A DNA stretch of 64,000 nucleotides from Lentibacillus cibarius (GTDB lineage Bacteria > Bacillota > Bacilli > Bacillales > Amphibacillaceae), in assembly GCF_005887555.1 (NCBI RefSeq), contig NZ_VCIA01000001.1:1178001-1242000 (forward strand), read 5' to 3'. The position numbers were made by a program, and so were the translations under genes. The notes beneath the pieces were generated by a model, which was not told the DNA's origin, searched no databases, and saw only the letters and a program-made list of their open reading frames with translations. Below, piece after piece: positions 5,001 to 63,101 of the stretch; positions within the stretch are counted from its first letter, which is position 1, and each line of letters begins with the position of its first letter.

Positions 5001-6770
5001 TTATTGGGTAAATAACGGCATTTCACCCCTTTGCTGCCGCATTTCATTCCGCTTCTTTTCTGTTAATTCCATATTTAACTGTCCTTTTTCAATAACAACC
5101 CCATAGTCATTTAACGCCGTTTCCACGGAAATGATTTCATCTAATACATCTTCATAAACCTTACTTGCTTGTTGTTCCAATGGATCACCGTAGCCACCGG
5201 ATGATGGAACCATAATTTTCACCGATTCCCCTGCATTAAAACGTTCGCCATTTAATTTGGAAGGGAGCTCCTCTGGCTTTGTATCCGGATTTTTAATTAA
5301 TGATGCTTCTGTCCCCGGCAAACCACCGTTATACCCCCATGGTTTCACGGTGTGTTTATCTCCCTCCATGGACATTAGTCCATCTGTCAGGAAACGGTTC
5401 CGACGGATAATCCCAAGGCCGCCTCGCGTTTTACCCGCACCACCGGTATCTTCTCTCAGTTCATACTGCTCGCATATCATGGGGGTGTGCATATCAAGGT
5501 CTTCAATCGGATTATTTCGTGTGTTCCATGAACTAAAGTCCATTGCATCCATTCCATCCTTCTCCGGGCGGCCTCTGTAAGAACCTTCATTGACTTCAAT
5601 ATATACCCAATAATTATGCTCCTCATCTAAACCAGAATACGATGCAAACTGGATGTTGGCTGCGCTCCCTGCACAGGTCCTTTCGGGTATGACTGGTGTC
5701 AATGCCTTAATAATTAAATCTGCAGCAGTGTTTACTTGATTAGCCCGACTAAAAGTAGCTGCAGGGCGGATTGGATTAAAGATACTTCCCTTCCTTGCTG
5801 TTACTTTAATTGGGCGAAACACGCCATGATTGGCCGGAACAAATTCCTCGTGTGTATAGGTATCCAGAAATATAGAACGCACCACACTGTATACCCCCAC
5901 ACATAAAGCACCGGAATAGGCAGCATTGAAAGCTGAGGCTACCTGATCTGCAGATTTGGATACATCTATTTCCAGTTCACTCCCCTGTTTAATGACATTT
6001 ACGTGTACCTTTAACTTTTCATTCAGATTGATCCCATCGTCATCAAGCCAGGACTCTGCCTCGTATTCACCATCAGGAATGTTGGAAATTTCCTTGCGCA
6101 TCATTCGTTCAGAGTAATTCATTAATTCTTCCCCAGCCGCAAGAACCGTATCTTTTCCATACTTTTCGATAAGCTCAATGAACCTTTTTGTTCCCAATCT
6201 GCAGGCAGCCACCTGTGCTTCCAGATCACCAATTACCTGGGAGGAAGTGCGTACTTTCTGTCGAATGATCTCATACAGTGTTTCATTCGGCTGTCCTTTG
6301 TCATATAACTTAACACCATTTAATACCAGACCCTCTGCATACACATCGGGAGCGTCCACGATTAAACCTGGCTGCGCACCACCTATGTCTAGATGGTGGG
6401 CCGTTGTTCCGGCATAACCAACTAACTCCCCTTTGTAAAAAATAGGTTGACTAAGGGATACATCGGGCGAATGTGACGCACCGGCATACGGATCATTGTT
6501 CCAAATGATGTCTTCTGGATGCTGATTGTCCCCTAGCACCTCCTGAAATCCTTCAATATATCCGGGAAGACATCCAAGCTGCATTGGCGTGGAATCTGAT
6601 TCGGCAAGCGTTTCTCCAAATTTGGTGAACACCCCAGCACCAAGATCCTCAGATTCTCGAATTAAAGAAGAGTAGGCCATCCGTTGCATCACATGCGACA
6701 TCTCTTTTGCAATCGTATCCAGCGCTCCTCCAATAACTTGCATGGTTACTGGATCAATTTTTTTATTCAT
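5001..6770 (-). CDS. hyuB: Hydantoinase B / oxoprolinase family, beta subunit
   Basis: The beta partner of the ATP-dependent hydantoinase. Together with HyuA it probably opens N-methylhydantoin to N-carbamoylsarcosine, using ATP. The 589 residues are normal for the family. The N-terminal part reads DPVTMQVIGGALDTIAKEM and is followed by RESEDLGAGVF. WNNDPYAGASHSPDV and the AHHLDIGG motif are typical metal-site segments. A glycine-rich end contains GGAGKTRGGLG and PSSGGYGDP. An ATG at 6770 and an upstream GTG at 6773 are both possible. It overlaps the end of hyuA by 8 bases, so the two are translationally coupled. Acetone carboxylase and 5-oxoprolinase subunits are relatives, but the amidase downstream points to a hydantoin substrate. 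Confidence 0.88.
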   Translation of the reverse strand: MNKKIDPVTMQVIGGALDTIAKEMSHVMQRMAYSSLIRESEDLGAGVFTKFGETLAESDSTPMQLGCLPGYIEGFQEVLGDNQHPEDIIWNNDPYAGASHSPDVSLSQPIFYKGELVGYAGTTAHHLDIGGAQPGLIVDAPDVYAEGLVLNGVKLYDKGQPNETLYEIIRQKVRTSSQVIGDLEAQVAACRLGTKRFIELIEKYGKDTVLAAGEELMNYSERMMRKEISNIPDGEYEAESWLDDDGINLNEKLKVHVNVIKQGSELEIDVSKSADQVASAFNAAYSGALCVGVYSVVRSIFLDTYTHEEFVPANHGVFRPIKVTARKGSIFNPIRPAATFSRANQVNTAADLIIKALTPVIPERTCAGSAANIQFASYSGLDEEHNYWVYIEVNEGSYRGRPEKDGMDAMDFSSWNTRNNPIEDLDMHTPMICEQYELREDTGGAGKTRGGLGIIRRNRFLTDGLMSMEGDKHTVKPWGYNGGLPGTEASLIKNPDTKPEELPSKLNGERFNAGESVKIMVPSSGGYGDPLEQQASKVYEDVLDEIISVETALNDYGVVIEKGQLNMELTEKKRNEMRQQRGEMPLFTQ

Positions 6771-28151: not shown

Positions 28152-29342
28152 TTAAACAAAAACGTCAGCCTGCGAAAAAGCCACGATTTTGGAATAAATG
28201 GGAACACGGTATTTCGAAATACGAATCGGGATGCAAGCAAAATGGATGCAATATTCAATAAATGGGAACACGGTATTTCGAAATCCAATCAATAATGGAT
28301 GCTGCCATTGCGCGGCTCGTCCGATTTGTCGCGAAAGCTTGATGACTTTTTTTGCTTTTTTTACACGTTTCGCATCATAACGTGACAAAGCCCTCGATAT
28401 GGAGGTTTCCTCATTGATTGCGCGCATGAGTTCATAAGCATCTTCAATCGCTTGTCCAGCACCTTGGCCCATATTCGGTGTCGTCGCATGAGCCGCATCG
28501 CCCAATAAACATACACGTCCGTATACAAAGGAATCGAGCGGTTGCATATCATATATATCATGATGTAAAAAGAAAGCATCCTCGGTTTCACGGATCAACC
28601 GCTCTACCGTAGAAGAAAAATGCGCAAACAACCGCGCTGTCTTGCCTTTATCCAAACGCGCATAGTAGTGATCTCCCTCATCCGCATTGACACACGCAAA
28701 CCAGTACACATTCCCGTCATGAAGCGGTGCCCACCCGAATCGACCATGTGCAGACCAAGCTTCCGACGATATGTGCGGCATAACATCACCCTTATTTTTC
28801 GTAATCCCACGCCAACACGTATAACCTGCGTAACGTGGCCGGCTGTCTGGTAATAACGTTTGGCGAAAAATCGAATGAATGCCATCCGCAGCAATAACGT
28901 AATCAACTTCATAAGTGGTGTTATCCTGGAAAGTAAGGGTGACATGATCGTCGTGTTGCACAAAGTCCGTTACCTGTTTATCAAAATGAAAATAATCCGG
29001 TTCGACCGCACGAAATAACGCTTCATGCAAATCCGCCCGATGAATCGTCACCGTCTCCTCACCAAAGCGCTTCTTTAATAGAGAAAAGTCAATCCGATTC
29101 ATCACGTCTAGCTTGTCATTTAAAAACCGCTGTTCCTGAAGCGGCATTCCGACCTTTGCCACATCTTCCTTTACCCCCATTCGATCTAAGGCAAGCATCG
29201 CGTTACTGCCTAGTCCAAGGCCGGCACCGAGGGGCTTAAACGAACGGGCCCGCTCGAATACATGCACCTTTATCCCCAAGTTATGCAGACCTGCCGCTAA
29301 TGCAAGTCCACCAATACCGCCGCCAATAATCGCTAGCGTCAT
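28152..29342 (-). CDS. FAD-dependent monooxygenase with altered C-terminus
   Basis: 396 residues of the class-A flavoprotein hydroxylase family (salicylate hydroxylase/UbiH/urate hydroxylase group). The N-terminal FAD motif is LAIIGGGIGGLALAAGLHNLG. The DG motif is VDYVIAADGIHS. The GD motif is VCLLGDAAHATTPNMGQGAGQAIEDA. GGAGG precedes the ATG. The 3' end is odd: a 28-base sequence occurs twice at a spacing of 64 bases (28193-28220 and 28257-28284). Because 64 is not a multiple of 3, the frame changes after the duplication. Without the insert the frame would end PKSWLFRRLTFLFK and stop at 28148-28150. The present end is a different 40-residue tail. The substrate cannot be assigned. Confidence 0.87.
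   Translation of the reverse strand: MTLAIIGGGIGGLALAAGLHNLGIKVHVFERARSFKPLGAGLGLGSNAMLALDRMGVKEDVAKVGMPLQEQRFLNDKLDVMNRIDFSLLKKRFGEETVTIHRADLHEALFRAVEPDYFHFDKQVTDFVQHDDHVTLTFQDNTTYEVDYVIAADGIHSIFRQTLLPDSRPRYAGYTCWRGITKNKGDVMPHISSEAWSAHGRFGWAPLHDGNVYWFACVNADEGDHYYARLDKGKTARLFAHFSSTVERLIRETEDAFFLHHDIYDMQPLDSFVYGRVCLLGDAAHATTPNMGQGAGQAIEDAYELMRAINEETSISRALSRYDAKRVKKAKKVIKLSRQIGRAAQWQHPLLIGFRNTVFPFIEYCIHFACIPIRISKYRVPIYSKIVAFSQADVFV
28193..28284. repeat. Direct repeat within the 3' end of the monooxygenase
   Basis: Two copies of aataaatgggaacacggt plus atttcgaaat, at 28193-28220 and 28257-28284, are separated by 36 bases. The 64-base offset shifts the reading frame of the gene end. Confidence 0.85.
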
Positions 29343-29416
29343 CTAATCAACCTCCAGCGCGTTCGTTTCTATCACATAATGGATGAAGAAAATCGTGACG
29401 TAGCCATAACATCCCT

Positions 29417-30532
29417 TCATGAACGACCATAAGACATACCAAAGAATTGACCGGATTGAACCATTTGCCGGACTTTTTCTAAACGAGCCGACTCATACTT
29501 TTCCAACCCCTTCAACGCCGCATGTCCCTGTACACCTTTGGCAACACATTTGCCTAACTCGGCCGCATCATTTAACGATTCATTAAACCCACTGGCTGTG
29601 ATGGGTGCAGGTACATGTCCGGCATCGCCAACCAAAGCAATGCGTCCTTTCACAAGTTGGTCGGGCACGTATTCTTTGATAGGAATTCCAGTAAGATCGC
29701 GTGTTTCAATCGCATGAAGTGTTGTGGATAGCCATGGCTCGGGCCATCTGACAGAAGCTTGTTCGGCCAGTTCATTCAGTGTCTGTTCCGGAATATCCGC
29801 TCCCTTAAGCGAATGCTTGACAACTGTTCCTTCTACACATCCGAGCTGACGTAACAAATCCGTTCGTGTGTTATCGTAAAACGTGCATCCAACTCGCCGA
29901 TCCCCAGAACCTGAAGTACCATCCTTCTCGCGCATGACAGACCCGAAGAAAAAGCCACCATTAATGCCTTGGAGCATTGTAACCCCTGAATCATGATCAT
30001 CAGGTCGAATATGTTCGGGTAAATCATTCTCATTTATAGCAGCAAACCACACCATGTACCCCGCAAACGTTGCATCCGGTTTGTGAGGTGCCACATGACG
30101 CCGAACCAGACTGCGGTGACCGTCCGCACCAACGACCATATCACCGCGAACCGTCTCTCCTGTATCCGTCACCACCCAGGCGGCGTCATCGTCCTGATCC
30201 ACCATTTCAACACGCGTGTTAAAATGTATATCAATACTGGAGTAGGATTGGGCTTCTGTACGCAAACTAGACTCAATCGATGACCAAAGCTGTATCGACT
30301 TTTTCCCACCCGAAGCCAGCTTCCGTAATAATGTTGCCGTTTTTGTACGGTCAAATAGGCCGCCGTCCACTTGCAAACCAGCTCCAGTGGGTCGTTGTTC
30401 TCCGGCTTTTTCTAAAATCGTCACCTGCAGCCCAACGCGTGCAAGCGCAATGCCTGTCATCAATCCGGAAAGCGATGCACCGACAATAACAGCAGACCCG
30501 CCCGTACTAGGCTCCTCAGTTGGTCTTTTCAC
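29417..30532 (-). CDS. FAD-dependent monooxygenase (second, divergent)
   Basis: A class-A flavin hydroxylase of 371 residues. FAD motif AVIVGASLSGLMTGIALARVG, DG motif GDMVVGADGHRSLVRRH, and GD motif RIALVGDAGHVPAPITASGFNESLNDAAEL. It has a GTG start with GGGGGGATATTTT upstream. It is on the same strand as the 28152 gene, 74 bases away, so the two may be one operon. The sequences are only distantly related, so they are not a recent duplication. Pyridine, urate or aromatic hydroxylation are all possible. The substrate is unknown. Confidence 0.85.
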   Translation of the reverse strand: MKRPTEEPSTGGSAVIVGASLSGLMTGIALARVGLQVTILEKAGEQRPTGAGLQVDGGLFDRTKTATLLRKLASGGKKSIQLWSSIESSLRTEAQSYSSIDIHFNTRVEMVDQDDDAAWVVTDTGETVRGDMVVGADGHRSLVRRHVAPHKPDATFAGYMVWFAAINENDLPEHIRPDDHDSGVTMLQGINGGFFFGSVMREKDGTSGSGDRRVGCTFYDNTRTDLLRQLGCVEGTVVKHSLKGADIPEQTLNELAEQASVRWPEPWLSTTLHAIETRDLTGIPIKEYVPDQLVKGRIALVGDAGHVPAPITASGFNESLNDAAELGKCVAKGVQGHAALKGLEKYESARLEKVRQMVQSGQFFGMSYGRS

Positions 30533-30891
30533 AAAATATCCCCCCAGTTTTTTAATAATGGCGTAACGTGTGCCAGATCCTTCATAACCCCTCTAATAAT
30601 TGGCATGTCGAAAATGAGGGATGAAAGGATGCCCGTCATTCAATTATAGCAAATACGTAAGGGAACGGAAGAATGAAAGGTGCCTGTTGTCACTTCCCGA
30701 AATATGGGGTGGTATGATATACGAGGAATAGATGGTTAAATCGTGCCATTTGGCTGAGGTACACTTTTCTTTTACAATAAAAACACCACCTTGTTGCAGT
30801 GGTGTTTTTACAGAAAGTGACTGGCACCTAAGCCTTGCTTAAATTAAGGAATTATTTCTCCTTGTATAACTTTTCCCGTATCACGTATGCA
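30533..30891. other. Gap with a terminator
   Basis: No gene found. A terminator hairpin is listed at 30781-30810, and a partial end (gtgactggcacc) of the palindromic repeat lies near 30818-30829. Confidence 0.45.
30781..30810 (+). terminator. Hairpin terminator
   Basis: aaacaccac and gtggtgttt pair around a 9-base loop and are followed by a short T-run. Confidence 0.65.
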
Positions 30892-31653
30892 TTAAATAGC
30901 TGTCCAGCCGCCATCTACTTTTAATGTATCTCCAGTAATAAATCTACTGATATCTGAGGAAAGATATAACACTGCTCCGGCTACATCATCAGCATCAGCT
31001 AGTTTACCTAATGGAATTCTTTCATATACATCACGTTCAAAGGCTTTATCTTCAAACATGTTTTCTGTTAGCTCTGTCTTAATGAACGTTGGAGCGACAG
31101 CATTTACATTTAAATGATGTTCTGCCCATTCTACCGCAAGTGCTTTTGTTAATTGGACCATTCCCCCTTTACTAGAGCAATAAGATGCACGATTCCAATA
31201 ACCGACAAATGCCATCTGTGAAGCAATGTTAACGATCTTACCACTTTCCTTGGGTATCATATATTCTGCAGCTTTTTGGCTACAAAAAAACGTCGCTTTT
31301 AAATTAGTATCGAGCACTTGGTCCCAATCTTGTTCGGTTATTTCAAGTGCGGGTTTTGTAATATTAATCCCAGCATTATTTACTAACACGTCCAACGCAC
31401 CCATTCGATTGACAGCTTCATCAACCATTGCACTTACTTCATTCATATTTTTTAAGTCTGCTGAGATGTAAGAACACGCTGCATGATAATTCTTAAGTTC
31501 ATTTGTAGCTTGAATTAGTGCCGATTCATTTCTCCCGACAATCACTACTTTGGAACCATGCTCTGCAAAAGCCAGGGCGATGCTTTTTCCTATCCCCTTA
31601 CTTCCTCCTGTAACAATAACTGATTTATTTTTAAGGTCCGAAAAATATTTCAT
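30892..31653 (-). CDS. SDR family NAD(P)-dependent oxidoreductase
   Basis: A short-chain dehydrogenase of 253 residues. The cofactor motif is VTGGSKGIGKSIALAFAEHG. The NNAGI motif is in DVLVNNAGINITKPAL. The catalytic Ser lies in VNIASQMAFVGYWN, and the Tyr/Lys pair is YCSSKGGMVQLTK. The C-terminus SSDISRFITGDTLKVDGGWTAI is the usual substrate-loop end. AGAAAGGAG precedes the ATG at a rather long distance. The substrate is unknown, and glucose or 3-oxoacyl reductase labels would be guesses. Confidence 0.9.
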   Translation of the reverse strand: MKYFSDLKNKSVIVTGGSKGIGKSIALAFAEHGSKVVIVGRNESALIQATNELKNYHAACSYISADLKNMNEVSAMVDEAVNRMGALDVLVNNAGINITKPALEITEQDWDQVLDTNLKATFFCSQKAAEYMIPKESGKIVNIASQMAFVGYWNRASYCSSKGGMVQLTKALAVEWAEHHLNVNAVAPTFIKTELTENMFEDKAFERDVYERIPLGKLADADDVAGAVLYLSSDISRFITGDTLKVDGGWTAI

Positions 31654-31792
31654 TACTTGAGATGGCTCCTTTCTGAATTCAGTCTTTACTCAAACTGGAT
31701 TTTCGTAAAATCATAAACAAGATGGTAAATTCTCTCTTCACCATTCTACTAAAATAGTAAAAATATTGCTAAGAAACCGCTAAGGGGAGGTG

Positions 31793-31863
31793 GCTCTCGC
31801 TCGAGTTGGGGGGCACGTCGCTCGAGTGGCGGGGGCTTTCGCTCGAGTGCGGGGCGGGTCGCC
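31793..31863. repeat. CTCGAG array, site 4 (3-4 units)
   Basis: Units cgctcgagttggggggc, cgctcgagtggcggggg and cgctcgagtgcggggcg. It stands about 40 bases past the stop of the deaminase gene. Confidence 0.7.
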
Positions 31864-31903
31864 TGACCGCAGCACTCTCACAAAGCCCCAAACCTTCCAA
31901 AAA

Positions 31904-32356
31904 TTATTGCCGCTCATACCAAAGCTGCATTGGATTTTTCCGATCAGTTTGTAATGACACTTGCTCCATCAAAATGGATCGGTCAGCGTCGGATTTATTC
32001 ATTTCTTTATAGATTTTTTCCCATTCATCCATTCCTACGCTGGTCATTTCTTCAATGGAGTTATAATAATAAACATTATCAATCCCCGCTGCATATATGG
32101 CTGTCAGACACATGGAACAAGGTTCGCCGCTTGTATACATAATGTACCCGGAAAAATCATTCGTCTGCAATTGGTCCTGTGCCTTCCGAATCGCCAAAAT
32201 CTCCGCATGACCCGTTACATCATATGTTTTTTGTTCTCCCGCTGCTGCTTCTGAGACAGCTTTCCCGTCTTTAACAAGCACTGCGCCAAACGGGATGCGA
32301 CCTTCGCGAACATTTTCCTCCGCCAGTTCGACTGCTCTATCCATGAATTGATCCAT
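31904..32356 (-). CDS. Nucleoside/nucleobase deaminase (CMP/dCMP deaminase fold)
   Basis: A zinc deaminase of about 150 residues. The first zinc motif is GHAEILAIR with the catalytic Glu. The second is SGEPCSMCLTAIYAAGI, the PCxxC motif. Such proteins deaminate guanine, cytosine or adenosine. The C-terminus (NPMQLWYERQ) resembles the guanine-deaminase (GuaD) form of Bacillus. If so, the window would have two unrelated guanine deaminases (see 61728). The ATG at 32356 has AAAGGAAGG at good spacing, and two earlier in-frame starts exist. Confidence 0.85.
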   Translation of the reverse strand: MDQFMDRAVELAEENVREGRIPFGAVLVKDGKAVSEAAAGEQKTYDVTGHAEILAIRKAQDQLQTNDFSGYIMYTSGEPCSMCLTAIYAAGIDNVYYYNSIEEMTSVGMDEWEKIYKEMNKSDADRSILMEQVSLQTDRKNPMQLWYERQ

Positions 32357-32440
32357 ATTCATCCTTCCTTTCATTATTCTATTTTTACTTTATCCCATTT
32401 TATACAAATATTCCATTTATCATTCCCCCGCTAGTAAATG

Positions 32441-38865: not shown

Positions 38866-40095
38866 TCATACCAACATGCGTTGCACTTTTTTCAATGCCA
38901 TACTTTCATCTGCCAAGGCTTCCGGATCGACGGCTTTTTGCTGCTGAATCATCCGTCTCGCAGGCAAGGCGTTTTTCGGTTGATTACAAATAAACGCGGC
39001 CTTGACGATATGCTGCTCATCTAAGTAAAAGTAAGTGAACGCATTCGCCTCGATTGATCCGCGTAAAACGGTTTGGGCCCATTCCTTTGCATGCCCGAAA
39101 TATTGGAAACGGCTGCCGTGTTGATCCGACCAAAAGTACGGTGTATACGTATAGGGGGCCGATTGCGGCTGTAGTAAGTTTTTGGCGACCGTCTTGGCAT
39201 GATTGACAGCATGATCCCAATGTTCCACATGAACAGGTATTCCGTTATACGGCCATGACGTACAGTCCCCCGCCGCATAAATATCAGGGACCGATGTTTC
39301 GCCATATTCATTGACAGTATAACCACCATCAATATGTATTTGTGGGTGCGAAACTTCCGTGTTCGGTGTCACCCCTACACCGATGATGACCGCTTGGCAC
39401 GGAATTCGCCTCCCGCCGGCAGTCACTGCTTCTTCCACCATGGCGTCCCCGTTAAACTGCGTGACAGAATCATTTGTAATCACATTGACACCATTACTGC
39501 GGTGCAAATCCAGAAAATACTCCGATACTTGCCGGCCGACGACATTTTCCATCGGGTACGCGGATCTTTCCACGATGGTCACGTCGATTCCTAACTGTTT
39601 CAGCGAAGAAGCAAGTTCGGCTCCAATAAAACCAGCCCCGATAATAACGGCCTCTTTCACATGTTGCATATGTTGTTTCATCGCGATGGCATCGGCCATT
39701 TGTCGTAAGTAAAAAATGCCTTGAAGATCATCGCCCTCAATCGACAGTGTGCGCAGTTTCGATCCTGTCGCAAGCATGAGTTTGTCCCATGCATAGGAAG
39801 AACCATCTTTGGTATCGATGGTTTTACGAACGGGATCGATGGCTGTCACCTCCACACCGAGCTTCAAATCGATGTCCAATCGTTCATAGGTCTCAGGGTC
39901 TCGTAATAAAATATTTGCTTCATCCATTTCCCCGGTTATCCATTCCTTCGATAACGGCGGGCGGTCATAAGGCATCTGGCTGTCGCTATCTAGCAGCACA
40001 ATCCGGCCTTGATAACCTTCTTTTCGCAAGCTTTCGGCGGCATGAACGCCCGCGATTCCCGCTCCAACAATGACTGTTGTATCTGCATCAGACAT
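38866..40095 (-). CDS. FAD-dependent ferredoxin reductase
   Basis: Transfers electrons from NAD(P)H to a Rieske-type ferredoxin. 409 residues with an FAD motif TTVIVGAGIAGVHAAESLRKEG, an NAD motif VIIGAGFIGAELASSLKQLG and a second FAD motif VPDIYAAGDCTSWP. The C-terminal domain ends DESMALKKVQRMLV. The ATG at 40095 has GGGGGAG upstream and lies one base past the stop of the Rieske ferredoxin gene, so both are translated together. It is the last gene of the five-gene operon from 43439. This reductase class serves ring-hydroxylating oxygenases. Confidence 0.9.
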   Translation of the reverse strand: MSDADTTVIVGAGIAGVHAAESLRKEGYQGRIVLLDSDSQMPYDRPPLSKEWITGEMDEANILLRDPETYERLDIDLKLGVEVTAIDPVRKTIDTKDGSSYAWDKLMLATGSKLRTLSIEGDDLQGIFYLRQMADAIAMKQHMQHVKEAVIIGAGFIGAELASSLKQLGIDVTIVERSAYPMENVVGRQVSEYFLDLHRSNGVNVITNDSVTQFNGDAMVEEAVTAGGRRIPCQAVIIGVGVTPNTEVSHPQIHIDGGYTVNEYGETSVPDIYAAGDCTSWPYNGIPVHVEHWDHAVNHAKTVAKNLLQPQSAPYTYTPYFWSDQHGSRFQYFGHAKEWAQTVLRGSIEANAFTYFYLDEQHIVKAAFICNQPKNALPARRMIQQQKAVDPEALADESMALKKVQRMLV

Positions 40096-40096
40096 C

Positions 40097-40450
40097 TTAT
40101 TCTCCCCCTTCATAGCGAACCCATACGGATCCGTCAGCCTCGATCGCTTCATAGACTTGCAGCGGGGTTTCCGCCGGTCCTTCCAGCACGGAACCGTCAC
40201 GAATATCGAAACAGGCAAAATGCAATGGACACGTTAGACACGTTCCATCCAGATCACCGTCGACCAACTCAGCATACGCATGCGTGCATATCCCTTCCAC
40301 GGCATAAACCTTTCCATCGCCCCGGCCGACAATGATTGTTTCATCACCTACCTCACATTCCATGAGGTCATCCTCTTCAAGTTCGGAACTTGAACATACG
40401 TAAATATAAGTGTCGTCTAAAGTGGGGTTTGCCCCTTCTGTATGTTCCAT
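40097..40450 (-). CDS. Rieske [2Fe-2S] ferredoxin (first)
   Basis: A soluble electron carrier of about 117 residues. The cluster ligands are in CTHAYAELV and CLTCPLHFACFDIRDG, the C-x-H...C-x2-H pattern. The acidic N-terminus (SSSELEEDDLMECEVGDE) is typical of oxygenase ferredoxins. The ATG at 40450 follows GAGGGTGAT. It probably passes electrons from the adjacent ferredoxin reductase to an oxygenase, but no oxygenase is encoded in this operon. Confidence 0.88.
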   Translation of the reverse strand: MEHTEGANPTLDDTYIYVCSSSELEEDDLMECEVGDETIIVGRGDGKVYAVEGICTHAYAELVDGDLDGTCLTCPLHFACFDIRDGSVLEGPAETPLQVYEAIEADGSVWVRYEGGE

Positions 40451-40492
40451 GGTTATCACCCTCGTGTTTTATTCTATATTGCTTAACCATCC

Positions 40493-41956
40493 CTAAAACC
40501 AATTAGCTGGCTCCGGTTTCAAGTTTCGGAAAATATGCTTCGTTTCCTGATATTCTTCCAGCCCTGTTTTGCCGAGTTCACGACCGATTCCGGACTGTTT
40601 AAAGCCACCCCATGGTGCTTGCGGGAAGTACAAGTTCACGTCGTTGATCCAAACTGTGCCCATCCGCATCTTGACCACACAACGTTGAGCTTTGGCAATA
40701 TCGTTTGTGAAAACACCACCGGCAAGACCGTAAATGGAATCGTTAGCAAGGTGGATCGCTTCTTCTTCCGTCGCGAATGTTTCCACGGTAATCACCGGAC
40801 CAAAGCCTTCATCCTGCACAACGCTCATGTCGGTCGTGCAATTCGTCAATACGGTCGGCAGGTAGAAAAAGCCATGCTGCAGTTCCGGATCGTCGGGCTT
40901 TTCGCCACCGACAGCAACCGTTGCCCCTTCTTTTTTTCCGTTCTCGACATAATCAACCACTTTTGCTAAATGTTCTTTAGATATGAGCGGGCCCATTTGC
41001 GTTGCTTCATCAAAACCGCTGCCAAGCTTGATTTTCTTCACGCGTTTAACGAGCTCCCTAACAAAATCATCATGCATGCTTTCCTCTACAATGAGGCGCG
41101 TGCCCGCTGAACAGATTTGCCCAGCATGGAAAAATACCGCATTCATCGCCTGGTCGACAGCGGTGTCAAAGTCGGCATCGGCAAAAATAATATTCGGATT
41201 TTTACCGCCCAGTTCCAATGCCAAATTTTTTACATTCGAACTGGCTGCCTGCATAATCCGTTTGCCTGTTTCGATGCCACCTGTAAACGAAATCAAATCC
41301 ACATCGTCACTAGCCGATAACTTGGCACCGACGGAATTGCCGGAACCAAGCACGAGATTGACAACACCTGCTGGAACGCCAGCCTCTTCCATTAATTCGA
41401 ATACTTTCACCGACGTAAGCGGCGTAATCTCGCTTGGCTTCATGACAAGTGTGTTACCTGCTGCCAGTGCCGGGGCCAATTTCCATGAAGCCTGCAATAA
41501 TGGGTAGTTCCACGGTGTAATCTGCCCGCAGACGCCGACAGGTTCATGAACGACCCTGCTTGTGGCATTGGCAATAGGCGATGCAATGATTTCGCCGCCG
41601 TCTTTGTCCGCCATTTCCGCAAAGTAATGGAAAACACCGGCAATATCATCCATATCAACGCGACTTTCTTCAACGGTTTTACCGGTATCAAGTGATTCAA
41701 GCTCGGCTAATTCTTCACGGTCACGTTCAATTAATGTCGCAATGTCATGAACCTTTTTGCCGCGGTCACGAGCAGGCCAATGTGACCATTCTCCATGGTC
41801 AAAGGCCTCTCGAGCGGCTGCAATCGCCAATGTCGCATCCTTCTCATTGCCTTCTGCTACCGTTGCAATGACTTCTTGATTATAAGGATTAATAATTTCT
41901 CTTGTTTCTCCTGAACAGGCTTCAACCCATTCACCGTTCATAAACATCTTTTTCAT
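40493..41956 (-). CDS. Aldehyde dehydrogenase family protein (betaine-aldehyde type)
   Basis: NAD(P)-dependent oxidation of an aldehyde to an acid. 487 residues. The cofactor region is TPWNYPLLQASWKLAPALAAGN. The catalytic Glu is in LELGGKNPNIIF, and the catalytic Cys in FFHAGQICSAGTRLIVEE. The conserved end is APWGGFKQSGIGRELG. GAGGTGAACGT precedes the ATG. It belongs to the betaine-aldehyde/2-hydroxymuconic-semialdehyde branch. In this operon it may oxidise an aldehyde made by oxygenase-dependent cleavage of the substrate. Confidence 0.88.
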   Translation of the reverse strand: MKKMFMNGEWVEACSGETREIINPYNQEVIATVAEGNEKDATLAIAAAREAFDHGEWSHWPARDRGKKVHDIATLIERDREELAELESLDTGKTVEESRVDMDDIAGVFHYFAEMADKDGGEIIASPIANATSRVVHEPVGVCGQITPWNYPLLQASWKLAPALAAGNTLVMKPSEITPLTSVKVFELMEEAGVPAGVVNLVLGSGNSVGAKLSASDDVDLISFTGGIETGKRIMQAASSNVKNLALELGGKNPNIIFADADFDTAVDQAMNAVFFHAGQICSAGTRLIVEESMHDDFVRELVKRVKKIKLGSGFDEATQMGPLISKEHLAKVVDYVENGKKEGATVAVGGEKPDDPELQHGFFYLPTVLTNCTTDMSVVQDEGFGPVITVETFATEEEAIHLANDSIYGLAGGVFTNDIAKAQRCVVKMRMGTVWINDVNLYFPQAPWGGFKQSGIGRELGKTGLEEYQETKHIFRNLKPEPANWF

Positions 41957-41985
41957 ACGTTCACCTCATGCATCCTCAGGCAGAT

Positions 41986-42342
41986 TCATTTGTATAGAAC
42001 TACATGTTCATCCTCAATTGTCACGTTGAAACTGCGTAATTTTTTTTCAGGTTCAGCTAGCATACAGCCGTCATTTTTGATGTCATATTCAAGCCCATGC
42101 CATGGACAGCGAAGAATTTCACCGTCTCTAATATATTCATAGTTTCCGTGAATATCCGTCCGTTTCGTATCGCCGCATAACGCACCTTCAGAAAGCGGTG
42201 CACCCTGATGCAGGCACCGATTGGCATAAGCGTAAAATTCACCGTCTTTTGTGCGGCAAACAACAACCGGAATTTTTCCTAATGACGCGCTTCTCATCTT
42301 GCCCGGCTCAATATCTTCTTTTTTACATACAACTTCTCTCAT
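41986..42342 (-). CDS. Rieske [2Fe-2S] ferredoxin (second)
   Basis: 118 residues. The ligands are in RCLHQGAPLSEG and ILRCPWHGLEYDIKNDG, the C-x-H...C-x2-H pattern. It is clearly different from the ferredoxin at 40097. The start overlaps the end of the amidohydrolase gene by four bases, which indicates coupled translation. It could be an electron carrier or a small oxygenase component. Confidence 0.88.
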   Translation of the reverse strand: MREVVCKKEDIEPGKMRSASLGKIPVVVCRTKDGEFYAYANRCLHQGAPLSEGALCGDTKRTDIHGNYEYIRDGEILRCPWHGLEYDIKNDGCMLAEPEKKLRSFNVTIEDEHVVLYK

Positions 42343-43439
42343 GTTAGAACACTCCCTTGCATTTGTGGCAATTTAGGGTAAGAAGCCCTCGCGTTTTCGG
42401 CGTAGATTTTTTCCTCTAACGTTTCACCAAGTTTAGGAAGTGCCTCAAGTGGTGAATCATAATCCCAATGCGGATAATCCGTTGCAAAACAGACCATATC
42501 TTCTGACCCCATTTGATCCATATACTGCATAAATTCTTTCTCGGTCATTTCTTCTACAGGCTGTGTTGTAAAACGAACATGCTCCTGCATGATGCGGCTC
42601 GGCATCCGTTTGACCCAAGGAATCTCATGACGAAGTTCCTTATACTGCTGATCCATCTTTTTCATCAAATGCGGGGCGTGCGTGAATCCGCCCTCGATCA
42701 TAATAAGGCTCAAACCAGGGAATTTATCAAACACACCGTTAAACACCATGTTGGAAACTTCAATCATATGCGCCGTTGGTAACATCGTATGCCACTCGAT
42801 AAAATAACGCGGCCAGCCTCCAAAATGCGTAGGTGGCTCATTATGATGCATACCAATCGATAAATTGTGCCGCTCAGCCGCTTCAAAAATCGGATGGTAA
42901 TAGGGGTCTCCCCACGACCGGGTATCAATCGGAAGCAGGATTTGCACCATTTTCGGATGCGAGCCAACCCGTTCAATCTCACGAACCGCTTGCTGTGGAT
43001 CCTGCGCCGCAATATGTACTGAACCATATAAACGGTCATCCTTTTCAAGCCAATTTTCAATCTGCCAATTGTTATAAGCAGTCGCTAAAGCAGCACCCAT
43101 TTCGTACCAACCGTGCATAGATGACGGAGATGGATCCAAGGCTCCCGTTAAAATGCCATACTCATGCCCCTCCGCATCGAGTAATTGTTCTTGCATAAAC
43201 GCGAGATCTGTTCCGGCAGCCCCACCATCTGGAGTTACAGCATCTGCCCGATCCACACCAGCAACCGTTGGCTGTGTATACGGCATGTGTTTTTCCTGTA
43301 TCCAGTGGTTATCTGTTATATACCGCCTCCACGGATTATCTAAATAAGGGACAAGTTCTGCATAAGTCGCCCTTTCGTGAATATCGGTGTCGATGATACG
43401 ACGCTGTTTCTTTCCTTTTTTAATTGATTTTTGCGCCAT
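42339..43439 (-). CDS. Metal-dependent amidohydrolase (ACMSD-like)
   Basis: A TIM-barrel hydrolase/decarboxylase of 366 residues from the amidohydrolase-2 family, related to aminocarboxymuconate-semialdehyde decarboxylase. Metal ligands appear in IIDTDIHERATYAELVPYL, in SIGMHHNEPP (second histidines), and in FATDYPHWDYDSPLEAL with the terminal Asp. GGAGTAATTTAAAA precedes the ATG. It heads a five-gene operon with two Rieske ferredoxins, an aldehyde dehydrogenase and a ferredoxin reductase. This suggests a pathway that hydrolyses or decarboxylates a ring-derived compound. The substrate is not known. Confidence 0.85.
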   Translation of the reverse strand: MAQKSIKKGKKQRRIIDTDIHERATYAELVPYLDNPWRRYITDNHWIQEKHMPYTQPTVAGVDRADAVTPDGGAAGTDLAFMQEQLLDAEGHEYGILTGALDPSPSSMHGWYEMGAALATAYNNWQIENWLEKDDRLYGSVHIAAQDPQQAVREIERVGSHPKMVQILLPIDTRSWGDPYYHPIFEAAERHNLSIGMHHNEPPTHFGGWPRYFIEWHTMLPTAHMIEVSNMVFNGVFDKFPGLSLIMIEGGFTHAPHLMKKMDQQYKELRHEIPWVKRMPSRIMQEHVRFTTQPVEEMTEKEFMQYMDQMGSEDMVCFATDYPHWDYDSPLEALPKLGETLEEKIYAENARASYPKLPQMQGSVLT

Positions 43440-58188: not shown

Positions 58189-58818
58189 ATGAGAAGGGAT
58201 TTAGTTTTTCGGTGGCTTTTCTTTTTTATTGGTCTATTGGTCTTGGGGCTTGGCGTTGCTTTGACTATCAAAGGGCAGCGGTTTGGTGTGGGGTCCTGGG
58301 ATGTGTTGCATGTGGGCTTGTTTAAGCAGCTTGGGTTATCTATTGGGCTCTGGTCCATTATTATGGGTATCCTTATTGTTACAGCTTCTTCTATCGGTTT
58401 ACGCGAGCTGCCCAAAATCGGCACATTTGCTAATCTAACGTCAGTCGGCTTATTTATCGACTTTTTTAATTGGCTCATTCCCGACCCCCATACGTTTCTC
58501 ATGCAATTTATCGCCTTTATTCTTGGCGTGATACTTCTAGCGATCGGCTGTGGCATCTATATTTCGGCGGATTTAGGCGCAGGCCCCCGGGATACAGTAA
58601 TGCTTCTGTTGTCGGAAAAGCTAAATTGGAGCATTACTTTTGCACGGACCTTTATGGAAATAGTTGTCGCTGTCGCAGGTTTTCTATTAGGCGGGCCAAT
58701 CGGCGTAGGGACCGTTATCATCACCTTTGCCCTTGGACCAATCATTCAAGTTTCTCTCGGGTACAGCAAAAAAGTTCTGCATCACCAACTAGAGTGCCAG
58801 GCACCCGCACAATTCTGA
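58189..58818 (+). CDS. yczE: YczE-type membrane protein
   Basis: 209 residues with five or six helices, YczE/YyaS family. It matches RWLFFFIGLLVLGLGVALTI, GVGSWDVLHVGLFKQLGLSIG, the glycine-rich GCGIYISADLGAGPRDTVML and the repeat GPIGVGTVIITFALGPIIQ. GAAGGATAGAT precedes the ATG at 58189. In B. subtilis YczE supports antibiotic (bacillaene/surfactin type) synthesis by an unknown mechanism. Here no such genes are near. The end CQAPAQF is encoded by palindrome copy 13. Confidence 0.8.
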   Translation: MRRDLVFRWLFFFIGLLVLGLGVALTIKGQRFGVGSWDVLHVGLFKQLGLSIGLWSIIMGILIVTASSIGLRELPKIGTFANLTSVGLFIDFFNWLIPDPHTFLMQFIAFILGVILLAIGCGIYISADLGAGPRDTVMLLLSEKLNWSITFARTFMEIVVAVAGFLLGGPIGVGTVIITFALGPIIQVSLGYSKKVLHHQLECQAPAQF

Positions 58819-58840
58819 ATTGTTTGGGTGCCTGGCACTT
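58793..58840. repeat. GTGCCAGGCAC palindrome, copy 13
   Basis: agtgccaggcacccgcac, aattctgaattgtttgggtg and cctggcactta. It joins the ends of two convergent genes: it codes for the tail of yczE, and its final TTA is the stop codon of the minus-strand Rieske gene. Confidence 0.9.
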
Positions 58841-59819
58841 ATTTCTTTGGTATGGTGCCGTTTTCGATTCCTAATTCGTCCAGCCATCTCCGGTAAGCGA
58901 TTGTGAGCGCATCTGATTTTAGATGCATTTCTGCTTGCAGGTCTAATGGGAGGAGTTCCGGCTTTTGACTTTCGACCACATCTAAGTCCTGATAAAAAAT
59001 CGTATCCTGAAATTCTCTGAATGGCTCGTCCGGCTGATCCAAATCATAATTTCTCGTCAGAAGCATAAAGACCCTGCATTGCTCGTGGTCTTCCTGATTG
59101 ACAACCGTTAAAATCGTAAATTCCTCATTCGATCCTTCTGCTGTTTTCGTGAATCGTGCAACAGTAGGACTCAAAATCTCATACACATAGTCCGTATAAC
59201 CACCTTTGGACCGACCGTCAGCATTTGGTTGGTAAACGGGAATTTTACTTGTAATGAAGCGGCCATCGATAAATTCTACATTATAATCGACTATTTCAGC
59301 ATGATCAGCATCCCCAAGCATGCCTTCATGAACAAACATTAAATGGGATACATCAATGAAATTTTCGATAATTCTTGGCGCATTGGCTTGCACTTCATAG
59401 GAACCGCAAATGATGGTACGGTAACCTTCTTTATCATATTCCGGATACGTAATCAGTGGAGTTGGTTCATCCCCAAGATTCACCCAGATAAGACCAAGAT
59501 ATTCCTGACAATGATAAACAGTTGCTTTTGCTTTCCTAGGGATGGGCCGTTCACATGGCAGTGCAGGAATCTTCACACATGTTCCTTCTGAATTATACTC
59601 CCATGCGTGATACGCACATACTAGATTCCCATCGACTACTTTTCCCAATGAGAGAGCGGCTCCCCGGTGAATACATAAATCTTTGAAAGCATGGACGCCT
59701 TTCTCATTTCGGAAAATAACCACCCTTTCCCCGAGCACGTATACCTGTTTCGGATCGTGCTGCAGCTCCTCCGCTTTGCATACAGGATGCCATTCATTCC
59801 ATAACTTATCTTGATGCAT
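58839..59819 (-). CDS. Rieske non-heme iron oxygenase, alpha-type subunit (HpxD-like)
   Basis: A ring-hydroxylating oxygenase of about 326 residues. The Rieske [2Fe-2S] ligands are in CIHRGAALSLGKVVDGN and LVCAYHAWEYN (C-x-H...C-x2-H). The catalytic iron site is NFIDVSHLMFVHEGMLGDADH with the Asp and two His. AGGAGGAATTATT precedes the ATG. The gene lies 80 bases downstream of the NCS2 permease, so it is probably in the same riboswitch-controlled operon, beside guanine deaminase. In Klebsiella, hpxD/hpxE encode an oxygenase that turns hypoxanthine into xanthine. That is the best analogue, but this function is an inference. Its electron partner may be the ferredoxins and reductase at 38.9-42.3 kb. 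A demethylase is another possibility. Confidence 0.85.
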   Translation of the reverse strand: MHQDKLWNEWHPVCKAEELQHDPKQVYVLGERVVIFRNEKGVHAFKDLCIHRGAALSLGKVVDGNLVCAYHAWEYNSEGTCVKIPALPCERPIPRKAKATVYHCQEYLGLIWVNLGDEPTPLITYPEYDKEGYRTIICGSYEVQANAPRIIENFIDVSHLMFVHEGMLGDADHAEIVDYNVEFIDGRFITSKIPVYQPNADGRSKGGYTDYVYEILSPTVARFTKTAEGSNEEFTILTVVNQEDHEQCRVFMLLTRNYDLDQPDEPFREFQDTIFYQDLDVVESQKPELLPLDLQAEMHLKSDALTIAYRRWLDELGIENGTIPKK

Positions 59820-59900
59820 AATAATTCCTCCTTGTTTTGTTAGGACTGGGCGAGACGGCACTTTTAACTTTAGGACAGTAGAAGCGCTGATACACCCGTC

Positions 59901-61262
59901 TTACTTGTTCACGCCGATTGGGATTACTTTGTTGTCTTGCTTTTTCTCCGGGAGCACGAAATTAAGTACTAATGCTGCGATTGCTCCAACGGCTGTACCT
60001 GAAGAAACAAAGTAAGTTACTAGATTGGGAAGTTGCTCTGCTATATCAGCAGGGATTAGAACAGCAGCTAATGCGAGCATAATCGGAACACCAACTACGA
60101 GCATATTTCGCTCCGTAAATGGGGCATTTTTTACGACTTTCAACCCATTCATCATAATGACCACACAGAGAATGGCGAACACACCATTAATAACGGGAGC
60201 AGGAATACTGGCAATACCATTCATCAACTTGGGCATCATTCCCAGCGCCATTAGAATAGCACCACCGGCAATAATGGGTCTGCGGCTTTTTACACCCGTA
60301 ATGGCAATGACCCCGGCATTGGAGGAATATCCAGTGACAGGTGTTCCACCGAAAAAGGATCCGATGAAGCATCCCAGTCCTTCGCCGAATGCTCCTCCGT
60401 TCAACCGCTTCTCACCAAGCTTTTCGTCCGCCACCTCGCCAACGGTAAACCATGTGCCTGTTGTTTCAATCATGATAATCAAATAAATGGCAAGCATAAT
60501 GAGTATGGCGTCTAAGTCAAACGTCGGTGTGCCAAATGCATATATACTCGGCAACGCAAACCACGGAACATCGCCAACAGAGGAAAAGTCTGTCATGTCA
60601 AAGAAGTAAGCAACCAATGTGCCAATTCCCAATGCCGATATGACCGAAGCTACTTTCATAAATCTAAATTTTGTTTGCACACTTTCACCGACATACATAC
60701 AAATAATAAGAATCGCCGCCGTAATGAAGGCAACAAGAATATTTAACTGAAAACTGCCTGGAGCCGTATAGATGGAATTAATCGCACTGGGCATCAGGGA
60801 AATCCCAACCACAACAATGACCGTACCCGCAACAATTGGTGGGATAAATTTTAGTACAAGCCTGCTAAATAGTTTTAAAGGCCTGCCAAGTATCGAAATC
60901 AACAGCGCGCCAGGAATCAGACTGCCAATCATTGCACCTATCCCGGATGTTGTTCCAATTGTCGCCAATGCACTTATAGGAACGAAAGATGGCCCTTGCA
61001 TCACCGGCAGTTTCATGGCAAAACCAGCCTGAATAATGGTCGCAATCCCGCAAGCAATAAATGTCATTTGCACCAATAACGCACTGTCGGCTACAGAAAA
61101 TGATAATAACCCCGCCAAAATGAGTGGAGGAATGAACAGATCCATTGCAAGTACATGCTGCAATCCGACAAAGATAGATTTCCCGACAGAAATAGCTGCA
61201 TCCCTGTCCTGTGGTTCCACCTGATTCATCTCAATTTCCTTATCTCTGGCTGTTTGATGCAT
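59901..61262 (-). CDS. NCS2 family purine (xanthine/uracil-type) permease
   Basis: A proton-coupled nucleobase carrier of about 453 residues with 14 membrane segments (NCS2/xanthine-uracil permease family). The N-terminal motif is FVGLQHVLAMDLFIPPLILA. The family signature is AYLIIMIETTGTWFTVGEVA plus GGTPVTGYSSNAGVIAITG, with Glu and Gly residues that bind the purine. The frame is open to 61427, but the ATG at 61262 has GGGAGG upstream. A guanine riboswitch and terminator precede it on the same strand. Guanine, xanthine or urate is the likely substrate. Confidence 0.9.
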   Translation of the reverse strand: MHQTARDKEIEMNQVEPQDRDAAISVGKSIFVGLQHVLAMDLFIPPLILAGLLSFSVADSALLVQMTFIACGIATIIQAGFAMKLPVMQGPSFVPISALATIGTTSGIGAMIGSLIPGALLISILGRPLKLFSRLVLKFIPPIVAGTVIVVVGISLMPSAINSIYTAPGSFQLNILVAFITAAILIICMYVGESVQTKFRFMKVASVISALGIGTLVAYFFDMTDFSSVGDVPWFALPSIYAFGTPTFDLDAILIMLAIYLIIMIETTGTWFTVGEVADEKLGEKRLNGGAFGEGLGCFIGSFFGGTPVTGYSSNAGVIAITGVKSRRPIIAGGAILMALGMMPKLMNGIASIPAPVINGVFAILCVVIMMNGLKVVKNAPFTERNMLVVGVPIMLALAAVLIPADIAEQLPNLVTYFVSSGTAVGAIAALVLNFVLPEKKQDNKVIPIGVNK

Positions 61263-61328
61263 TCGATAATTCCTCCCATGAATGGTCTTGTAGTTGGTGA
61301 AAGCGAATGTCGGCGGTGGTACAGGTAT

Positions 61329-61378
61329 AAAAAAGCCCGGGACACACGCTTCCCTATAAGAAAGCATGTATCCCGGGG
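61329..61378 (-). terminator. Intrinsic terminator of the riboswitch
   Basis: On the minus strand CCCGGGATACATGCTTTC and GGAAGCGTGTGTCCCGGG form a long stem with a six-base loop, followed by cttttttat. It lies between the aptamer and the permease gene, so it is the off-state hairpin of the riboswitch. Confidence 0.85.
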
Positions 61379-61440
61379 ACTCGTAACCATAATAAGAATA
61401 GCATCTAATATAAAAATTAGACGTCACCGGACTTGCTTTC

Positions 61441-61503
61441 CATAGTCAGTTTATTTACGGTAAACTGGTAGAAACTTGCAGGCCATATCCCCGCTATTAT
61501 ATG
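61441..61503 (-). promoter_or_regulatory. Guanine (purine-class) riboswitch aptamer
   Basis: The minus-strand RNA has all the purine aptamer parts: P1 CATA...TATG, the TATAAT junction, P2 GCGGG/CCTGC with loop GATATGG, the central AAGTTTCTACC, and P3 AGTTTA/TAAACT with loop CCGTAAA. The ligand-specific base in the last junction (GACTATG) is C, which pairs with guanine rather than adenine. Ligand binding should favour the terminator at 61329-61378 and lower permease expression. The length of 63 bases is typical. Confidence 0.93.
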
Positions 61504-61527
61504 AAAAACATGATATTGTTTGTCTTT

Positions 61528-61555: not shown

Positions 61556-61727
61556 GTAGTTTTTAAAATAAATTTTCCCTCATCCACTTCAAAACATCCC
61601 AAATCCCTTGTCACTGATGCATTTGGAATAGCATAATTTGAATCATTCCACTCTGGACTTCCTCTTGTCGTTCCCTTATAATGGCTACTATAATTTATAA
61701 AACACGAACAATAAGGTGGATTGTATG

Positions 61728-63101
61728 ATGAATTATTCGAAAGTATTTCAAGGGACTGCATTTACGAGCAAATCAGCTAAGGAAATAAATATATTAAAAG
61801 ACTACCTCTTTTGCCTTGATGATCGGGGGATGATTGCAAAAATTGTTTCCCCGGAAGATGACGAGTACAACGCTATGATCCAGGAATACCAAGATAAAGA
61901 TTATTTTCACCGTCTCAAAGAAGGAGAATACTTTCTGCCTGGATTTATTGATTTACACATCCATGCACCGCAATGGGCACAGTCTGGTACAGCGTTGGAC
62001 CTCCCCTTATATGATTGGTTGCATACGTACACTTTTCCACTGGAAGCTAAATTCGCTGATAGAACCTTTGCCAGAAAAGTCTATGAAGATCTTGTCCATA
62101 CATTATTAAAAAACGGAACAACGACCGGCTTATACTTTGCCACCGTACATAAAGAAGCCAGCTATCTGCTAGCTGAAATATGTGCAGATCAAGGACAGCG
62201 CGGGTTAGTTGGTAAAGTGGTTGCAGATGACCCGCAACAAAACCCCGACTATTACAGAGATTCCGACGCAGCAACAGCACTAGCCGAGACAGAAGAATTT
62301 ATTCTAGATGTAAAGGAACTGGCAAAGAAAACCAAGCAAGGTGTTTATCCTGTTGTAACCCCAAGATTTATCCCAAGCTGTACGGACGAAGCATTACAAG
62401 GATTGGGGGAGCTAGCGGCCAAATACGATACACACATTCAATCACATTGCAGCGAAAGTGATTGGGAACACGGCCATGTCAAAGAAAGATGCCATAAAAC
62501 GGATGCATCCGCACTAAATGAGTTCGGATTATTACAGGACAAATCCATCATGGCGCACTCGGTATTCTTGGAAGATAACGATGTGGACCTTTTTGCCGAA
62601 ACTGGGACAGCGATCGGACATTGTCCACTGTCTAATGCCTATTTTGCGAATGCAGTTCTGCCCCTCGCCCATTTCCATTCCCAAGGCGTGGATATTGGCC
62701 TCGGAACTGACATTTCAGCCGGTGCAGCGCCAAGTCTCTATGATAATGCCAAGCAAGCAGTGGTATCTTCCCGTATGCTGGAAGATGGTGTAGACACCTC
62801 TCTTTCTCCCGAGACACGAGGCGTGGACGGATCACGTATTACGATTAATGAAGCCTTTTACTTTGCCACAGCCGGGGGTGGGAAAAGCCTGAGTCTCCCA
62901 ATCGGACTTCTTGAAGAGAATTATGCATGGGATGTACAAATTGTAGACACAAACGCTGGAGCAAATAAACTTCCTATTTTTGATGAGAATGAAGATTTAT
63001 ACGATGTGTTTCAAAAAATGATGTATTTAGTAAAACCGGACAACATCCGTGAAGTTTGGGTACAGGGTGAGAAAGTAGTGAGTCAGGGAGACGGCTCTTG
63101 A
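61728..63101 (+). CDS. guaD: Guanine deaminase (amidohydrolase type)
   Basis: Zinc enzyme that deaminates guanine to xanthine, about 457 residues. The metal-binding motif FLPGFIDLHIHAPQWAQSGT contains the HxH pair, IQSHCSESDWE and IMAHSVFLEDND have further His ligands, and GLGTDISAGAAPSLYDNAK has the catalytic Asp. DLPLYDWLHTYTFPLEAKF is the family's substrate region. AAGGTGG precedes the start. The ATG at 61728 is favoured over the ATG at 61725 or the upstream GTG. It diverges from the riboswitch-controlled permease and oxygenase, forming a purine catabolism module. Confidence 0.92.
   Translation: MNYSKVFQGTAFTSKSAKEINILKDYLFCLDDRGMIAKIVSPEDDEYNAMIQEYQDKDYFHRLKEGEYFLPGFIDLHIHAPQWAQSGTALDLPLYDWLHTYTFPLEAKFADRTFARKVYEDLVHTLLKNGTTTGLYFATVHKEASYLLAEICADQGQRGLVGKVVADDPQQNPDYYRDSDAATALAETEEFILDVKELAKKTKQGVYPVVTPRFIPSCTDEALQGLGELAAKYDTHIQSHCSESDWEHGHVKERCHKTDASALNEFGLLQDKSIMAHSVFLEDNDVDLFAETGTAIGHCPLSNAYFANAVLPLAHFHSQGVDIGLGTDISAGAAPSLYDNAKQAVVSSRMLEDGVDTSLSPETRGVDGSRITINEAFYFATAGGGKSLSLPIGLLEENYAWDVQIVDTNAGANKLPIFDENEDLYDVFQKMMYLVKPDNIREVWVQGEKVVSQGDGS

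Follow-up and report, generated by a model that had tools for sequence, protein, structure and literature searches.

A guanine-class riboswitch ahead of a purine permease and a Rieske oxygenase in Lentibacillus cibarius: a possible purine salvage operon

The locus in Lentibacillus cibarius

We analyse here a locus of Lentibacillus cibarius at which a guanine-class riboswitch stands before the genes of an NCS2 purine permease and a Rieske non-heme iron oxygenase. The window, that is, the whole stretch of DNA analysed, is 64,000 nucleotides long (contig NZ_VCIA01000001.1), and all positions below are those of the window. Transcription on the minus strand meets the aptamer, the terminator, the permease gene and the oxygenase gene in this order, and the features are as follows:

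61423-61524, minus strand: purine riboswitch aptamer of the guanine class (RF00167, full length)
61427-61447, minus strand: 3' strand of P1, the proposed antiterminator half, forming a duplex with the 5' arm of the terminator
61336-61377, minus strand: intrinsic terminator, a hairpin with a 19-bp (base pair) stem and a U tract of six U, the putative OFF expression platform
59901-61262, minus strand: NCS2 purine permease of 453 amino acids (PF00860, 245 bits)
58839-59819, minus strand: Rieske non-heme iron oxygenase of 326 amino acids (PF00355, 80.5 bits; PF19112, 89.1 bits)
61725-63101, plus strand: divergent guanine deaminase, its start perhaps at GTG 61716 (TIGR02967, 397.4 bits against a cut-off of 375.4)
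58794-58838, unstranded: palindromic interspersed repeat directly behind the Rieske stop codon, a possible 3' end of the transcript

A preliminary description of the locus had named the aptamer, terminator, NCS2 permease, Rieske oxygenase and divergent guanine deaminase, and family models confirm them all. Its view that the aptamer is complete agrees with the full-length RF00167 match, but the end that it gave at 61503 falls short, the model match running about 20 nucleotides further; its spacing of 80 bases between the two minus-strand genes is 81 nucleotides as measured. This gap carries a GGAGG site, and no terminator-like or promoter-like site is found in it on the minus strand. The Rieske reading frame has 326 amino acids from its ATG, and 340 from an alternative GTG start. 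We infer that permease and oxygenase are co-transcribed.

A palindromic interspersed repeat of about 45 nucleotides (GTGCCAGGCAC ... GTGCCTGGCAC) occurs in the window between 37667 and 63570, with the exact left arm at 14 sites. Some of its copies end open reading frames at the 3' side and provide their last codons, and one copy abuts the Rieske stop.

Conservation and distribution of the cassette

Related loci were taken from a profile of 27 Rieske proteins, as the best 80 of at least 472. Among them, 21 loci that share 77% identity or more (L002-L021 and L023) are called the close or clade-1 loci, and 58 loci with 47-55% identity, mostly from Paenibacillus and Cohnella, are called clade 2. 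On the whole, aptamer, permease and Rieske gene are present in the same order in all 21 close loci, with the divergent guanine deaminase at the same place in 17; the conserved guanine-controlled permease-Rieske cassette is real. The two genes overlap by 14 nucleotides in five of the 21 and are spaced by 2-202 nucleotides in the other 16. The aptamer pattern is detected in 22 of 81 loci, the additional one (L036) being some 7 kb away from a Rieske gene of clade 2. In addition, aptamer and Rieske gene of the cassette are present on the 1.4 Mb megaplasmid pMEGANia of Niallia taxi (L084), and a cmscan of this locus together with six of the 21 close loci passes in all seven. The locus L022, with 66% identity, has no purine aptamer by cmscan.

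The cassette hosts are salt-tolerant relatives of Bacillus. A clade-1 Rieske is found in seven of 199 genomes, L. cibarius included, and in only one of 12 within its own genus. An orthologue of the permease (E 1e-120) is present in one of 60 genomes, which is L. cibarius itself, and the other 59 also have no clade-1 Rieske; the simplest reading is that permease and Rieske were gained together as one unit. In the FastTree phylogeny, clade 1 and L022 group with support 1.0 and join (0.92) a group holding L031, L054, L078 and others.

The guanine riboswitch and its predicted switching

The aptamer matches RF00167 with 82.8 bits (E 2.2e-13) against a gathering threshold of 37. Its J3-1 sequence is GACUA, so that the ligand position is C; U occupies position 51, and neither J2-3 nor J3-1 has an insertion (GUUUCUACC and GACUA in the window). 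By the features that separate guanine-I from xanthine-II in PMC9295807 (C74, U51, no junction insertion), it is thus classed as guanine-I and not xanthine-II.

We folded the sequence behind the aptamer in 23 leaders, namely the window, the 21 close loci and L084. A hairpin before a run of at least four U is present in all 23, that of L006 being weak and doubtful. In the window, the duplex between the P1 3' strand and the terminator 5' arm has -19.7 against -9.1 ± 2.8 kcal/mol, with none of 200 letter shuffles as low, and in 15 of the 23 leaders at most 5% of 200 letter shuffles match the antiterminator duplex. As judged from these foldings, the arrangement is the usual guanine OFF design, and from the terminator and antiterminator we predict an OFF platform. 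The guanine control put forward in the preliminary description is supported, at the level of sequence, by a guanine-class aptamer and a predicted OFF platform.

Five purine aptamers, including that of the cassette, occur in the L. cibarius genome, and each carries C at the ligand position. The other four precede xpt-pbuX, guaA, purE and a permease which we take to be AzgA-like (it has no NCBIfam match at E 1e-60). Since these four switches all precede supply genes, the Rieske unit is also read as one of supply, that is, of salvage. The switch resembles the guanine-I OFF switch (RF00167) before xpt-pbuX in its core, ligand C, U51 and terminator platform, whereas the second gene of the cassette is an oxygenase.

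Other purine-sensing RNAs ahead of dioxygenase genes linked to purine oxidation are on record. In Proteobacteria, genes of Rieske and other dioxygenases follow xanthine-I (NMT1) RNAs (PMC7373994); in Firmicutes, xanthine-II RNAs, with a tested example from Paenibacillus, often precede genes called dioxygenase, allantoinase or xanthine dehydrogenase (PMC9295807). Both share this placement with the cassette but differ in the aptamer, xanthine-II by U51G, junction insertions and a predicted ON response, xanthine-I by its proteobacterial hosts and translational control. Near the Pantoea Rieske genes (L082), no NMT1 riboswitch scores over gathering. The preliminary description had known of no account of a purine-regulated Rieske oxygenase in Bacillaceae; in that breadth novelty is not supported, given the purine riboswitches published before dioxygenases (PMC7373994, PMC9295807), but for a guanine-I OFF switch with a permease and a Rieske oxygenase we found no description in the open-access literature.

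The Rieske enzyme and its nearest relatives

The oxygenase has the CxH...CxxH cluster, the 2-His-1-Asp iron site and the bridging Asp of Rieske oxygenases. The residues C50, H52, C69, H72, D157, H160, H165 and D279 are invariant in all 83 clade-1 and clade-2 sequences, their roles being presumed from the alignment. The nearest solved relatives are SxtDIOX/SxtT, followed by NdmB/NdmA, and in fold the enzyme comes nearest to SxtT/GxtA and NdmA/NdmB. Besides, K226 and Q272, the latter aligning with Gln of NdmB and Asn of NdmA, are invariant in 23 of 23 clade-1 and 60 of 60 clade-2 sequences. NdmA and NdmB are N-demethylases of methylxanthines, with host, regulation and operon unlike those of the cassette; SxtT and GxtA (SxtDIOX) act in biosynthesis, where they hydroxylate a tricyclic guanidinium compound, while the context of the cassette is purine uptake. 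HpxD/HpxE of Klebsiella, as described in PMC7373994, likewise include a Rieske-type enzyme, which acts in purine oxidation.

The permease

The model TIGR03173 (pbuX) gives the cassette permease 362.6 bits, below the cut-off of 414.15, against 554.4 for the PbuX of the same genome, with which it shares 30% identity. Its motif YSSNAG has Ser at what we take, from the motif of this PbuX and the NCS2 signature, to be the place of the xanthine-contacting Gln408 of UapA. Ser or Thr stands there in all of the 120 listed homologues (the best 120 of 802), and PbuX retains Gln. In UapA, Gln408 makes contact with xanthine at N1-H and C2=O (PMC4837479) and is termed irreplaceable (PMC4837479, PMC4162363). 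The residue suggests that the permease may take a substrate altered at N1/C2, or may be of a urate type.

Purine genes around the sister clade

Many clade-2 Rieske genes also lie among purine genes, as far as neighbour clusters can be named from one or two scanned members each. A Bmp-family binding protein gene is directly upstream of the Rieske gene in 41 of the 58 loci. The Bmp protein of L079 has as its best solved relative AtzT, which binds guanine with a dissociation constant of 110 nM (PMC6834077). Genes for xanthine dehydrogenase subunits lie within 6.5 kb of the Rieske gene in 21 of the 58, and one pucD of these sets reaches 880 bits, the cut-off being 784. For example, L069 and L073 have xanthine dehydrogenase, Bmp, Rieske, uricase, HIU hydrolase and allantoate deiminase, and L077 of P. 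rigui has, in order, an amidohydrolase, the Rieske, OHCU decarboxylase, HIU hydrolase, allantoinase, allantoate deiminase and a PucG-like aminotransferase, where HIU hydrolase, allantoinase and PucG are names that we presume. L078 has a nucleoside hydrolase, adenosine deaminase and NCS2 permeases amid three Rieske genes, and also an 8-oxoguanine-deaminase-like protein under the cut-off. In L022 and L059, NMT1/THI5-like importer genes precede the Rieske. No purine-class RNA over gathering is found in the 21 of the 58 loci scanned. Ferredoxin and/or reductase genes are near the sister Rieskes of L031, L054 and L078, including a 4Fe-4S ferredoxin in L031 and thioredoxin-reductase-like proteins, under the TIGR01292 cut-off, in L031 and L054.

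These several kinds of purine gene context support the earlier suggestion that the oxygenase acts on a purine, which we hold to be very probable.

Xanthine dehydrogenase, uricase and redox partners

The search for xanthine dehydrogenase that the preliminary description had proposed finds no MoCoBD_1 protein in the L. cibarius genome. This family, which also matches other molybdenum enzymes, is absent from 152 of the 199 genomes searched, L. cibarius included; it is found in none of the seven cassette carriers against 47 of the 192 others, seven carriers being too few for a link. Then 46 genomes were searched for MoCoBD_1, uricase (PF01014), OHCU decarboxylase and HpxO, L007 and L078 lying outside part of these searches. 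The 21 clade-1 genomes include seven with MoCoBD_1, none with uricase and four with OHCU decarboxylase, while the other 25 (24 of clade 2 and G020, which holds L022; G017 has both clades and is counted as clade 1) include 23, 10 and 25, respectively. A full puc-type gene set is present in three clade-1 genomes (L100-L102). The earlier claim that the oxygenase stands in place of a molybdenum dehydrogenase is not supported as a rule, with MoCoBD_1 in seven of 21 cassette genomes and absent from 152 of 199 anyway, and with xanthine dehydrogenase genes beside the Rieske in 21 of 58 clade-2 loci.

HpxO over the cut-off is found in none of the 46 genomes, in a search without positive control since none of 14 control genomes passes this cut-off; HpxO-like proteins below it are common. 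Overall, 19 of the 46 genomes possess OHCU decarboxylase but neither uricase nor an HpxO that passes the cut-off (15 of 25 clade-2 or intermediate, four of 21 clade-1). Terrilactibacillus (G027; two Rieskes in L031 and one in L112, at 6735-7811) and Bacillus sp. 03113 (G031; two in L054 and one in L066) have at least three Rieskes each, together with OHCU decarboxylase and HIU hydrolase; MoCoBD_1 and uricase find no match in them, and none of their proteins reaches the HpxO cut-off. A flavoprotein of about 478 amino acids lies between or beside the OHCU decarboxylase and HIU hydrolase genes in L103, L111 and L118, which are loci of three of the 19 genomes and have no uricase; it is another candidate for a urate oxidase, and that of L111 has a weak match of the ArsO type.

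In the window, an HpxO-like monooxygenase dependent on flavin adenine dinucleotide (FAD), under the cut-off, clusters at 28152-32374 with a small TadA-like deaminase and another FAD monooxygenase; the HpxO-like one (28152-29342) is not named HpxO here, as it scores 257.6 bits against a cut-off of 500. The genes at 38866-43439 encode an amidohydrolase, two small Rieske ferredoxins, a betaine-aldehyde-type dehydrogenase (TIGR01804, over cut-off) and an HcaD-like reductase (under cut-off), and the reading frames scanned in this run include no alpha subunit of an oxygenase; an OpuAC binding protein at 37721 comes after it. Carriers at 38.9-42.3 kb had been suggested as partners of the oxygenase. 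This is not borne out by the ferredoxin at 40097-40459, the one carrier searched, which was rejected as a conserved partner on weak matches in 17 of 20 other cassette genomes (best E 3.3e-8, 26-46% and partial). A VanB-type reductase was rejected as well: 20 of 21 genomes match, nearly all partially, and near full length only G010 at 34%. The Pantoea VanB-type query finds weak partial matches in the L. cibarius genome (best E 6.5e-7).

Proposed function and alternative explanations

Our leading reading, offered tentatively from the sequence and given slightly less than an even chance, is that permease and oxygenase form a two-gene operon of purine salvage under a guanine-I OFF riboswitch, in which the oxygenase is predicted to demethylate a modified purine. 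Without guanine, the P1 3' strand would pair with the terminator 5' arm and transcription would continue; with guanine bound, P1 would be held, the terminator would form, and permease and Rieske would both be off. The permease may import a purine base unlike plain xanthine at its N1/C2 edge, and the Rieske would oxidise this base to xanthine or guanine, the likeliest reaction being an oxidative N-demethylation. Xpt and GuaA, of the same regulon, would convert these to guanosine monophosphate (GMP), guanine deaminase connecting both bases. A general 4Fe-4S ferredoxin together with a thioredoxin-reductase-like ferredoxin reductase may supply the electrons, because such genes adjoin a few sister Rieskes. 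Taken apart, the salvage direction is probable, and N-demethylation as the reaction is plausible at rather under an even chance.

Several observations weigh against the salvage demethylase. The preliminary description had said that a separate promoter of the oxygenase without purine response would refute its proposal. On the minus strand the gap holds no promoter-like site, but the permease gene contains two (60493-60520 and 60151-60178), so that a second promoter for the oxygenase may exist; such sites are weak consensus matches (13 over the two strands, compared with 7.0 ± 2.7 in shuffles). The two-gene operon holds no gene for the use of formaldehyde. In eight of the 23 leaders the antiterminator duplex is not beyond 5% of shuffles, L006 and L009 clearly failing. 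The Ser/Thr motif is also present in all of the 34 listed permease homologues of 54-58%, for which adjacency to a Rieske is not established; it was rejected as a hallmark of the cassette for being common to these, one of which is labelled 'uric acid permease PucK' by its source, and it may thus mark a urate-type permease. The counted purine-gene clusters are absent from 12 of the 58 clade-2 loci and from L022, although L077 and L054 do have purine genes, and L022 and L059 have NMT1/THI5-like importers before the Rieske. Finally, with HpxD itself outside the sequence comparison, the enzyme may also be a hypoxanthine hydroxylase.

The last point leads to the main rival, rather unlikely in our judgement, in which an HpxD-like ring hydroxylase turns imported hypoxanthine into xanthine, perhaps on to urate, and supplies Xpt or the use of nitrogen where a genome lacks xanthine dehydrogenase. 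It has the precedent of Klebsiella HpxDE (PMC7373994). The lack of a MoCoBD_1 protein in L. cibarius, xpt in the same regulon, and the three or more Rieskes of G027 and G031 beside OHCU decarboxylase, with no MoCoBD_1 or uricase match, all agree with it. However, the step would be redundant where MoCoBD_1 (seven of 21 cassette genomes) or nearby xanthine dehydrogenase genes (21 of 58 clade-2 loci) are present, and the permease is without the xanthine-contacting Gln. Hypoxanthine can, moreover, already enter through a phosphoribosyltransferase.

A Rieske in the stead of uricase, converting imported urate to 5-hydroxyisourate, is improbable. It would explain the genomes with OHCU decarboxylase and no uricase (15 of 25 clade-2 or intermediate and four of 21 clade-1), HpxO over cut-off being found in none of the 46, and the Rieske of P. 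rigui directly before OHCU decarboxylase, HIU hydrolase, allantoinase and allantoate deiminase; yet L. cibarius and 17 of the 21 clade-1 genomes have no OHCU decarboxylase, a guanine OFF switch suits supply and not urate breakdown, and Rieske and uricase are adjacent in L069 and L073. The flavoprotein of L103, L111 and L118 is an alternative candidate oxidase, HpxO-like proteins under the cut-off occur in many genomes, and other urate oxidases were not sought. Least probable of all is a non-purine substrate, such as guanidinium or another heterocycle, the permease being a hitch-hiker in the operon. The best sequence and fold matches, SxtDIOX/SxtT of the saxitoxin pathway, whose substrate is no free base, speak for it, but purine neighbours recur in varied form (NCS2 with the guanine switch, AtzT-like Bmp, xanthine dehydrogenase, OHCU decarboxylase, guanine and adenosine deaminases).

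Implications

A wider proposal, which we consider rather unlikely, is that a purine-acting Rieske branch of Firmicutes has split: the cassette would serve GMP salvage by demethylating modified purines such as methylguanines from RNA turnover, and the sister branch would replace xanthine dehydrogenase and uricase. A narrow literature search for methylguanine, also with Rieske or demethylase, gave nothing relevant. On the whole, our analysis draws on several kinds of gene context to connect an uncharacterised Rieske family with purines, and it names a small set of candidate substrates. Replacement of xanthine dehydrogenase and uricase by the sister enzymes, if real, would close the gap in the 19 of 46 genomes with OHCU decarboxylase but neither uricase nor HpxO over the cut-off. 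No enzyme for the recovery of modified bases appears to be known in these bacteria, and were the cassette oxygenase a salvage demethylase, this recovery would be under the control of a guanine switch.

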